64,000 nt of DNA from Prochlorococcus sp. AG-449-P16 (GTDB taxonomy: Bacteria > Cyanobacteriota > Cyanobacteriia > PCC-6307 > Cyanobiaceae), in the NCBI GenBank assembly GCA_003212175.1, contig QCQN01000001.1:1-64000 (forward strand), in the 5' to 3' direction. Positions 1 to 32,133 of this stretch are shown piece by piece; the stretch's first letter is position 1; the number at the start of each line of letters is the position of its first letter. Made by a program: the position numbers and the translations under genes. A model generated the notes under the pieces. The model ran no database searches and was not told where the DNA came from. It was given only the letters and a program-made list of their open reading frames with translations.

Positions 1-1107
1 GTCTATGATTTCAGTTTTTTCAAGAAGACTTGTTAAATGTATTTCTAACCATAGACGAGGATTATCACATGTTCTAATTTGATAATCAACGTTTTTTAAT
101 TTATCATGCCACTCTAAAATTTTTGATTTATTTACTCTACTTGAAAATTTGTTTAATTCAACTTGAAAATCTGTAGATGTATAGAAAATATCAGAATAAT
201 TTCCGTTTAGTGTTATAAGTAAAAGATCCCGCGTGATATTTAATAGGCCAATCAAAATTTCATGCGGCTCATTACCTGCATCGTATAGTTTATTGCAATT
301 AAATAACAAAGACTCTGGTTTATTATCGATTAGCGAATTAATTAAGCTGATCAATTCAGTTTCTGACACTTCACCAAGTAGGTTCTGAACATTTTTAGTG
401 TTTATCCCATCGGGAATAAGGCTTAGTTGTTCCAGTAAACTTTGAGCATCGCGCATTCCACCATTACATCTTTTGGCAATAAGTTTAAGAGCCTGATCTT
501 CAAATTTTATTGATTCTTTTTTGGCTATTTTGGAAAGATGTTCAAAAATTGCATTAGAATTTATCCTTTTAAAATCGAACTTTTGGCATCTGCTTTGTAT
601 AGTATTTAAAACTCTTTCAGGATTTGTAGTAGCAAGGATAAAAACTACGTTAGCAGGAGGTTCTTCAATAGTTTTCAGTAAAGCATTAGATGCAGCGGTT
701 GAGAGCATATGGCATTCATCAATCACATATACTTTCCATCTCGCTTGAGTAGGGGAAAATCTTGCCCTATCGATAATTTCTCTTATATTTTCAACCCCAG
801 TATTAGAAGCTGCGTCTATCTCTATAATGTCAAGAGCGTTTCCGTCTGATATTTGTCTACATAATTCGCAATTTCCACATGGTTTAGGAGTAGGTTGTGC
901 AGAAGATAAGCAATTTAATGATTTCGCAAAAATTCTTGCACTTGATGTTTTACCTGTTCCACGAGGTCCATTAAAAAGGTAAGCAGGAGCAATTTTTTTA
1001 GATATCAAAGCTTGTTTAAGTGTTATAGATATAAAGTCTTGCCCAACTAACTCATCCAGTTTATTCGGTCTATATTTTTGATGAAAAGGCTTATGAGTAT
1101 ATGACAT
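1..1107 (-). CDS. dnaX: DNA polymerase III subunit gamma/tau, partial (C-terminus runs off the window)
   Basis: Minus-strand reading from ATG at 1107: MSYTHKPFHQKYRPNKLDELVGQDFISITLKQAL...; DnaX N-terminus, AAA+ and Cys-cluster region; absent from ORF track because truncated by the window edge. Confidence 0.93.
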   Translation of the reverse strand, partial: MSYTHKPFHQKYRPNKLDELVGQDFISITLKQALISKKIAPAYLFNGPRGTGKTSSARIFAKSLNCLSSAQPTPKPCGNCELCRQISDGNALDIIEIDAASNTGVENIREIIDRARFSPTQARWKVYVIDECHMLSTAASNALLKTIEEPPANVVFILATTNPERVLNTIQSRCQKFDFKRINSNAIFEHLSKIAKKESIKFEDQALKLIAKRCNGGMRDAQSLLEQLSLIPDGINTKNVQNLLGEVSETELISLINSLIDNKPESLLFNCNKLYDAGNEPHEILIGLLNITRDLLLITLNGNYSDIFYTSTDFQVELNKFSSRVNKSKILEWHDKLKNVDYQIRTCDNPRLWLEIHLTSLLEKTEIID

Positions 1108-1165: not shown

Positions 1166-2533
1166 TTAGGCAGATTCCTTAATAACTCTATTTGACCCTG
1201 CAGGAAGTTTAACAATTTTTGAGAAAAACAGATTTTCAACCATTTTTTTTGTAATGGTGAACTCTTTAATTTCCTCTTGGGATGGAAGAGTATACATTAC
1301 ATCAAGCATTAATTCTTCAATTATTGATCTTAGGGCTCTAGCACCAGTTTTCCTATTAAAGGCTTCTTTCGCAATTGCTTCAACAGATTCAGGTTCAAAT
1401 TTTAGTTCAACATTATCCATACCTAAAAGAGTTGTAAATTGCTTAATTAGTGCATCTCTTGGCTCTGTCAGGATTGATTCGAGTGTTTCTTTTGTAAGAT
1501 GATCCAAAACTGCGCATACAGGAATTCTCCCTATGAATTCAGGTATTAGTCCATATTTAACTAAATCGTCTAATTCTAAATTTTTGAGTGCATCTCTTGA
1601 CTCAATCGATTTTTTCGAATGAATATTCGTTTGATCAGAGGTTGTAGTAAATCCTATGGAATGTTTACCTAATCTTTTTTGCACAATATCTTCTAGTCCT
1701 ATGAATGCACCTCCACATATAAATAAAATTTGACTTGTATCAATTTGAATGCAGTCGTGGTAGGGATGTTTTCTTCCTCCTTGTGGAGGCACATTGGCAA
1801 TAGTACCCTCTAGCATTTTGAGCAATGCTTGTTGTACTCCTTCACCAGACACATCTCTAGTAATAGATGGGTTTTCACTTTTTCTCGCTATTTTATCGAT
1901 TTCATCAATATAGATAATTCCTCTTTGAGCCAAATCAACATTCATCTCAGCTTTTTGTAGAAGTCTTAAAAGGATATTCTCTACATCTTCTCCAACATAT
2001 CCAGCTTCAGTGAGAGTTGTTGCGTCCGCTACTGCAAATGGAACATCTAGAAATTCAGCCAGAGTTTGGGCTAATAATGTTTTCCCACTACCAGTTGGAC
2101 CAATAAGCAAAATATTTGATTTCTGAAGTTTAGTTCCTTTACCTTCGTTAGAATTATTTTCTTTATTCTCTTCTTTTATTCTCCAAGCTAATCTTTTGTA
2201 ATGATTATAAACAGCTACTGATAATATTTTTTTTGCAGCATCTTGTCCAACCACTTGGTTATCTAGAAAACTTTTTATTTCTAGTGGTTTAGGGATAGTT
2301 GTTAATTCTAATGGAATGGATTTATCAGTGTTGTTAGGAGTTAATTTTTTCTTAACATGTTGAGAATTGTTGAGTTTTGTTTGAGAATCAATTAGCTCTT
2401 CGTCAAGGATTTCATTACAAAGATCAATGCATTCATCACAAATGTAAACTCCTGGTCCGGCTATTAGTTTCCTGACCTGATCTTGTGATTTACCACAAAA
2501 TGAACATTTTAGATGGGCGTCAAATTTAGCCAT
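1166..2533 (-). CDS. clpX: ATP-dependent Clp protease ATP-binding subunit ClpX
   Basis: N-terminal [12 protein letters not shown] zinc finger, GPTGSGKT Walker A, IDEIDKI Walker B; next to clpP and tig. Confidence 0.98.
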
Positions 2534-27688: not shown

Positions 27689-29982
<2,294 letters not shown>

Positions 29983-29985
29983 ATT

Positions 29986-30357
29986 TTGAACTTAGAAGCA
30001 TTAATTTATATTTTAGTTGGCAGTTTCCTAGGGCTAATTTTAAGACTTTATATTAGAAATCACTATAGACAAAAGATAAGCAATAAAATTGACTCCTCAT
30101 CTATTGTAAATATTTTAGCTTCATTTTTTTTAGGAATTTTATTAGCAATCGAACCGAAAAATATTAATTTATTTTTATTATTTTATGTAGGATTTTTAGG
30201 ATGTTTAAGTACATTCTCATCCTTTATATATCAATTATTTAATTTAATAAAGGATGGTAGATATTTAAGTTCATTGGTTTATTATATTAAAGTTATTACC
30301 CTTTCTTTTTTATTTTTTTGCCTTGGAAATATTTTTATTTTAATTTTTAAATCTTGA
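29986..30357 (+). CDS. crcB: CrcB/Fluc-type fluoride channel subunit (first of tandem pair; TTG start)
   Basis: ILVGSFLGLILRLYIRN, NILASFFLGILLA, GFLGCLSTFSSF signature. Confidence 0.85.
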   Translation: MNLEALIYILVGSFLGLILRLYIRNHYRQKISNKIDSSSIVNILASFFLGILLAIEPKNINLFLLFYVGFLGCLSTFSSFIYQLFNLIKDGRYLSSLVYYIKVITLSFLFFCLGNIFILIFKS

Positions 30358-30382
30358 AAAAAAAAACTTTATAATTTTATTT

Positions 30383-30682
30383 TTGATTGCATATTTTGCA
30401 ACTATTTTACGACTTTATATAAACAATAATTTGATTATTTCGCTAGCCGGATCATTTATTTATGGGTTTGTAATAGCGAGATCTATATCGGGTTATAAAA
30501 AAGAAATAATATTAACTGGGTTTTGTTCTTGTTTTACTTCTTTTAGCAGTTTTGTCTATTTTTTATATACACTTTTTAATCGAGGTTACTATTTTAAATT
30601 ATTCATTTACTTGAATTTAATTGTTATTTTTAATTTGATAATGATGTATTTTGGTTTTATGATTAGTAGAAAAAGTAACTAG
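30383..30682 (+). CDS. crcB: CrcB/Fluc-type fluoride channel subunit (second of tandem pair), N-terminus uncertain
   Basis: FATILRLYINNN, SLAGSFIYGFVIA, GFCSCFTSFSSFVY signature; see finding on A10 tract. Confidence 0.75.
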   Translation: MIAYFATILRLYINNNLIISLAGSFIYGFVIARSISGYKKEIILTGFCSCFTSFSSFVYFLYTLFNRGYYFKLFIYLNLIVIFNLIMMYFGFMISRKSN

Positions 30683-30723
30683 TTTTTATATAATAGAATT
30701 ATTATTTGTTAAAGAGTAATATT

Positions 30724-32133
30724 ATGGACGAAAACAATAATTTTGAATATATTTCCTCTTTATCTTCAGATCTAACTAGTAGCGAAAAGATTACTATTCA
30801 ACTTGAGAAACTTCTCATAGCAGGAAATTACGATGAGGCAAAATTATTGTTAGAGCCTTCTCAACCTGTTGATATTGCTGATGCTATAGGTAGTCTTCCT
30901 TTAATCTTGCAAGCACTTGCATTTAGGTTGTTGAAAAAAAATGAAGCAATCGAGGTTTATGAGTATTTAGATCCGATAGTCCAACAAACATTATTAGACA
31001 GACTTAGATCTGGGGAAGTTTTGGAAATCGTAGAGAAAATGTCACCCGATGATAGGGTTCAACTTTTTGATGAGTTGCCCGCAAAAGTAGTGAGAAAATT
31101 CTTGTCAGCTTTAAGTCCTGGTGAAAGAAAAGTTACTGCAGAATTACTAGGTTATGAACCAGAAACCGCGGGAAGATTAATGACAACCGAATTTATAGAT
31201 TTAAAAGAGATGCAAACTGCAGAACAAGCATTATCTTTAGTTAGAAAGAGAGCCCCATTTACCGAAACTATTTATAGCTTGTATGTGACAGATCAAGAAA
31301 GACACCTTACTGGAATTTTATCTTTGAGAGATCTTGTAACCGCAGATCCTAAGAAACCGATTGGGGATGTAATGACAAAGGATGTGGTAAATATTTCTAC
31401 AAACACTAATCAAGAAGAAGTTGCCAGAGCTATTCAAAGATATGATTTTTTAGCTCTTCCAGTCGTAGACAAAGAAAAAAGGTTAGTAGGAATTGTTACC
31501 GTGGATGACCTCATTGATGTTATTGAGCAAGAAGCGACGAGAGATATTTATGCAGCAGGCGCTGTTCAATCTGGTGATGAGGATGATTATTTTCAAAGTA
31601 ATTTATTTACAATTACTCGCAGAAGGATTCTATGGCTCTTAATTTTAGTTTTAGCTAATGGCCTAACTACCAAAGTTATTGCAATGAATGATCAAATTTT
31701 AAAAGAAATAGTTTTATTAGCTGCCTTTATACCCTTACTAATTGGAACTGGTGGGAATGTGGGAGCACAAAGCTCTACTGTCGTTATAAGGGGTTTAAGT
31801 ACGCAAAAATTAAAGTCATTGGGCGCCTTTAAAGCAGTAATAAAAGAGGCTATTACCGGCGCGTTACTTGGTATTTTTATGATTTTGGTAGTTTTCCCCT
31901 TTGCATGGTGGCAGGGGGAAGGACCACTAATTGCAGCAGCAGTAGGAATTAGCCTTATATCTATCACGACCCTTGCAGCTACTGCTGGAGCAATTCTTCC
32001 TCTAATGTTTGATAGGATGGGCTTAGATCCTGCCCTAATGTCATCTCCTTTTATAACCACAGTGACTGATATTGCTGGTGTTTTTATTTACCTCAACACA
32101 GCTAACTGGCTATTAAATTCTTCCATTTTATGA
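30724..32133 (+). CDS. mgtE: Magnesium transporter MgtE (start set to ATG 30724)
   Basis: MgtE N domain, CBS pair, TM domain with PLLIGTGGNVGAQSSTVVIRGL. Confidence 0.95.
   Translation: MDENNNFEYISSLSSDLTSSEKITIQLEKLLIAGNYDEAKLLLEPSQPVDIADAIGSLPLILQALAFRLLKKNEAIEVYEYLDPIVQQTLLDRLRSGEVLEIVEKMSPDDRVQLFDELPAKVVRKFLSALSPGERKVTAELLGYEPETAGRLMTTEFIDLKEMQTAEQALSLVRKRAPFTETIYSLYVTDQERHLTGILSLRDLVTADPKKPIGDVMTKDVVNISTNTNQEEVARAIQRYDFLALPVVDKEKRLVGIVTVDDLIDVIEQEATRDIYAAGAVQSGDEDDYFQSNLFTITRRRILWLLILVLANGLTTKVIAMNDQILKEIVLLAAFIPLLIGTGGNVGAQSSTVVIRGLSTQKLKSLGAFKAVIKEAITGALLGIFMILVVFPFAWWQGEGPLIAAAVGISLISITTLAATAGAILPLMFDRMGLDPALMSSPFITTVTDIAGVFIYLNTANWLLNSSIL

Follow-up and report, generated by a model that had tools for sequence, protein, structure and literature searches.

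A ten-adenine tract sets the second crcB gene of a Prochlorococcus genome one base out of frame with its likely native start

A-tracts of nine or more residues are prone to slippage in many bacteria, and coding regions avoid them (PMC1088944). Frameshifts at homopolymers within AT-rich genes that are otherwise intact form a described class, known from Blochmannia (PMC3017870). Slippage at the A11 tract of tssM1 in Citrobacter restored about 20% of the product (PMC4256274). In Buchnera, a survey of transcripts across the whole genome revealed no case in which slippage put a frame right (PMC5574713). During translation in E. coli, the heptamer A_AAA_AAA promotes shifting less strongly than A_AAA_AAG does (PMC5009743). 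The proteins concerned here belong to the Fluc/CrcB family of fluoride channels, in which pairs of the La1/La2 type need both proteins (PMC3755343) and drift of one pore in heterodimers has been discussed (PMC5636608).

The crcB pair of Prochlorococcus sp. AG-449-P16 lies within a stretch of 64,000 nt, here called the window; among named sequences, the closest relatives of its crcB1 all come from Prochlorococcus. Five genes, all on the plus strand, follow one another in the order gyrB, a small SH3-like gene, crcB1, crcB2 and an mgtE-type gene:

27689..29656, plus strand: presumably gyrB, a name taken from the protein sequence and from general knowledge; at its stop it shares 4 nt (ATGA) with the gene that follows (open reading frame list)
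29653..29982, plus strand: small gene between gyrB and crcB1 with a weak SH3-like match (Pfam SH3_3, E = 0.0013, below the cut-off)
29986..30357, plus strand: crcB1, fluoride channel subunit 1, 123 aa, with pore Asn42 and Phe77/Phe80 kept (Pfam CRCB, E = 7.2e-20; PDB 5A43, E = 2.3e-8; alignment)
30356..30682, plus strand: body of crcB2, fluoride channel subunit 2, conserved, with the pore Asn replaced by Ser (Pfam CRCB, E = 1.4e-11; PDB 5A43, E = 0.0014)
30706..32133, plus strand: downstream gene, which we take to be an mgtE-type Mg2+ transporter, its family assigned from protein sequence and general knowledge (open reading frame list)

Both crcB genes score above the Pfam CRCB (PF02537) cut-off of 32.9 bits (71.7 bits for crcB1, 45.0 for crcB2) and both match the solved Ec2 channel (PDB 5A43); as judged from sequence, the pair is a two-gene Fluc/CrcB channel. 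Each subunit carries the two pore phenylalanines (STFSSF in crcB1, TSFSSF in crcB2) in columns that are conserved in the alignment. The pore asparagine, N41 of Ec2, is retained as N42 in crcB1 and is a serine in crcB2 (S29, codon 30440-30442), a replacement found almost genus-wide (69 of 71 relatives). About 14 residues are missing from crcB2 between helices 1 and 2. The sequences suggest that CrcB1 and CrcB2 of Prochlorococcus form a heterodimer with one working pore, and the serine fits the proposal that one pore may drift in such heterodimers (PMC5636608). A search of Rfam found no RNA element, returning a single sub-threshold snoRNA-like match.

The junction between the two genes contains the following features:

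30354..30356, plus strand: TTG, the putative native start of crcB2, assembled out of frame with its body; the homologous NTGA start is in frame in most of the nearest relatives
30357..30366, plus strand: A10 tract, site of the frame displacement, of a length unique among 71 junctions
30359..30365, plus strand: A_AAA_AAA heptamer in the zero frame of TTG 30354, read from the sequence and recognized from knowledge of slippery sites (PMC5009743)
30372..30374, plus strand: TAA closing the TTG 30354 frame
30383..30385, plus strand: TTG, first ATG, GTG or TTG of the crcB2 frame, without a start counterpart in relatives (open reading frame list, relatives and structure model)

crcB1 ends in AAA TCT TGA, its stop codon at 30355-30357 being overlapped by TTG 30354 as TTGA, and exactly ten As lie directly 3' of that TTG. 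Its frame runs for only 6 codons (TTG AAA AAA AAA ACT TTA TAA), and the body of crcB2 lies in the -1 frame relative to it, which is free of stop codons from 30344 until the one that ends at 30682. The original prediction, that the A10 tract leaves crcB2 one base out of frame with TTG 30354, is therefore exact. It held that one extra A would restore the frame, and 11 As do fit; two fewer (8 As) fit equally, because in relatives a conserved GCN-TAY follows the start after 11 codons in some cases and after 12 in others. The first ATG, GTG or TTG within the crcB2 frame itself is TTG 30383, and ATA 30371 is the sole start before it once the other starts of translation table 11 are allowed.

A family search found the crcB pair genus-wide, as the idea of a split gene pair had anticipated, and a DNA search gave a match in 236 of 266 Prochlorococcus genomes. 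The crcB1/crcB2 junctions were reduced to 71 distinct ones, the window counted among them. Each of the 70 others offers crcB2 an in-frame ATG, GTG or TTG from -11 to +8 nt relative to the crcB1 stop. In the nearest relatives this is mostly the NTG of an NTGA overlap with that stop (for example ATC TTG AAG AAG TTC in L046, AAA TTG AAA AAA AAT in L047 and AAG TTG AAT AAA AAA in L054). At the position of TTG 30383, the relatives that were read carry TTA, CTA or other non-start codons, and no start codon aligned there. Since the other junctions are without exception in frame near the crcB1 stop and no relative read starts at 30383, TTG 30354 is likely the native start on this homology, as proposed from the window by itself; a clean start at TTG 30383 in relatives, which would have spoken for the later codon, was looked for among the relatives read and was not present, and TTG 30383 was rejected as the native start. 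The window holds the sole out-of-frame junction of the 71, and its run of 10 As compares with runs of 2 to 8 in the other 70. A scan of viral contigs for further copies found none. Separately, L043 (G006:C26) has its two crcB genes on opposite strands, at 193-474 (plus) and 2249-2497 (minus), about 1.8 kb apart at a contig end, an arrangement that is possibly an amplification chimera.

The best explanation, to which we assign a probability of roughly 80%, is that a length change in a slippery A-tract, arising either as a private mutation or as an error of sequencing, amplification or assembly, displaced the native start, and that no dedicated switch is involved. An ordinary length change is favored over such a switch because every relative checked is in frame. 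In this reading, crcB2 would be an ordinary second subunit, probably coupled translationally to crcB1 through the TTGA overlap. The presence of 10 As where 11 or 8 fit the frame would have displaced the start by one frame, and the origin would be either a recent private slippage mutation in the lineage of the cell or an error in single-cell amplification or assembly. One point against this explanation in its version with an ancestral A11 is that A/T runs of 11 or more were absent from open reading frames of at least 100 aa, both in 388 kb of coding sequence of the genome and in 659 kb of a relative. A real indel and a technical error appear about equally likely as the source of the change.

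A purely technical origin, in which the true tract has 11 or 8 As and bases were lost or gained in amplification, short-read sequencing or assembly, stands somewhat below even odds in our estimation. Long A-tracts are the likeliest place for such errors. The uniqueness of the A10 junction among the 71 and the intact body of crcB2 both favor this reading. A Prochlorococcus single-cell workflow reports 3.0 indels per 100 kb (PMC6122165), a figure that may come from a data set other than the one to which this genome belongs, and the smallest contig of the assembly, at 2,053 bp, fits the 2,000-bp cut-off of that workflow (PMC6122165); error rates of this order lend credibility to the assembly indel that the original prediction listed as an option. 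A systematic artefact is opposed by other A10 tracts in clear genes: over about 820 kb of the assembly, at least five of them keep their frame, among them one at the very start (ATG-A10) of a CobW-type gene and those in genes for a glycosyltransferase, an acetyltransferase, a zinc-ribbon protein and a product longer than 1,000 codons, all named from sequence. The junction tract is more than a chance feature, since A/T runs of at least 10 number 12 in 460 kb of the genome and about 23 in 820 kb; within 388 kb of coding sequence only 3 were counted. An A9 "junction" in L183 reads as two separate genes.

Several other genes in the assembly are broken in frame. In a 110-aa SufA/IscA-like gene (L156:1025-1361, minus strand, G000:C4), which has 86% identity to G015, an 8-nt insertion together with a 1-nt change distributes the coding sequence among three frames; this is either a pseudogene or an assembly error. 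An ArfB-type release-factor-like gene (L161:14138-14543, plus strand, G000:C6) has lost its GGQ motif and contains several stops and frame changes, and its copy in G015 is intact. Compared with G015, a conserved 468-aa gene (L157, near 12076, minus strand, G000:C4) leaves its frame about 19 residues short of the end, at a site with no long homopolymer. These few frame-broken genes could be pseudogenes or errors. The hits of our homemade frameshift survey were mixed and several proved to be artefacts of start extension; no error rate was taken from it.

The other origin is a real, private indel whose effect is offset by non-programmed slippage, by RNA polymerase adding an A and/or by the ribosome slipping by -1, to give a reduced but functional amount of CrcB2. 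We hold this tentatively, at slightly lower odds than the technical origin. The tract exceeds the slippage threshold of about nine (PMC1088944), and the body of crcB2 is under normal constraint. Were the indel real, such slippage would probably still supply enough CrcB2: addition of one A by RNA polymerase would yield MKKKNFIILF..., and a -1 ribosomal slip at A_AAA_AAA would yield the identical protein, MKKKNFIILFLIAYFATILRLY..., so that on a reading of the sequence both routes converge on one product. Precedents exist in endosymbionts (PMC3017870) and in C. rodentium (PMC4256274). Weighing on the other side, the indel is seen in none of the relatives, the heptamer is the weaker of the two E. 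coli shift sites (PMC5009743) and the Buchnera transcriptome survey detected no restoration (PMC5574713).

A recent loss, in which crcB2 is a null allele taking its first step toward decay, is unlikely. The other broken genes in this genome lend it some weight, but crcB2 is otherwise intact and conserved and the pair is kept genus-wide. No stop interrupts the body, and of its 31 near-invariant residues 30 are retained; Gly65, replaced by Ser, is the one exception. The ratio of crcB2 to crcB1 divergence is ordinary (rank 60 of 72); the terminal branch of crcB2 is the longest of 72, as would be expected in a lineage whose crcB1 branch is the third-longest. Decay of one subunit, an option raised in the original prediction, is thus not supported by the sequence of the gene body.

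Equally doubtful is an alternative start at TTG 30383 (or at ATA 30371) following the 6-codon TTG 30354 frame, giving a slightly shorter, working CrcB2. TTG 30383 lies 8 nt past the TAA, near enough for reinitiation, and shortening the protein leaves its Pfam score as it was (45.3 versus 45.0 bits), but among the relatives read none has a start codon there. Such a start would also cost part of helix 1. In a structure model of low confidence (pLDDT 61.6), used solely for the rough extent of the helix, helix 1 spans residues 2-21 and TTG 30383 corresponds to residue 10, so that about 8 of 20 helix residues would be lost; the statement that this start removes most of helix 1 was too strong.

Programmed transcriptional slippage, programmed frameshifting or phase variation setting the ratio of CrcB1 to CrcB2 is very improbable. 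The tract and its A_AAA_AAA heptamer are placed exactly where a switch would act, but the 70 relatives are in frame with 2 to 8 As, and a second tract or control element was not seen. These options, also put forward from the window, gain no support because the long A-tract is not conserved: no relative has one and none is out of frame. A conserved tract with displaced frames, as programmed transcriptional slippage entails, was not found among the junctions, 70 of 71 being in frame. For -1 frameshifting of the dnaX type the heptamer is present, yet the relatives have no frame change to bridge. That A10 is fixed in the species, with CrcB2 made only by slippage and tract length setting the amount of the second subunit, is similarly far-fetched. 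A +1 slip at TCT-TGA that would join crcB1 and crcB2 into one protein was considered and dropped, as the relatives terminate and restart, and fusion of antiparallel Fluc subunits used a linking helix (PMC3755343).

If the preferred length change is a real indel, it would show that an AT-rich bacterium with a free-living habit and a streamlined genome can carry an intact gene frameshifted at a homopolymer, whereas most known examples of slippage making such indels tolerable come from insect endosymbionts. The locus also serves as a warning about single-cell genomes: short membrane proteins can be truncated when their start is called next to an A-tract, as would happen here with the automatic choice of TTG 30383. 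As it stands, the locus is a local annotation problem of low general interest.

Set against known systems, the displaced crcB2 start falls into a known class of homopolymer frameshift, in that it combines a single indel, genuine or technical, in a long A/T tract with a gene that is otherwise intact and normally constrained. The closest counterpart of the gene pair is La1/La2 of Lactobacillus acidophilus, likewise two adjacent homologous crcB genes expected to form an obligate heterodimer (PMC3755343), whereas in crcB2 of Prochlorococcus the segment that joins helices 1 and 2 is shorter and Ser takes the place of the pore Asn. The A11 tract of tssM1 in C. rodentium (PMC4256274), a case of transcriptional frameshifting, resembles the junction in having a displaced frame behind an A-tract of similar length that one added A restores. 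It differs in that both of its products are needed and their expression was measured, whereas crcB2 is known from sequence and its relatives lack a conserved tract. The poly(A)-tract frameshifts of Buchnera and Blochmannia (PMC3017870) occur in endosymbionts, whereas the host here is a free-living cyanobacterium, the tract falls at codons 2-4 beside the start, the case comes from one genome and rescue is a proposal. In both settings, an AT-rich genome carries one indel in a long A-tract of a gene whose body is intact and whose evolution is not accelerated.
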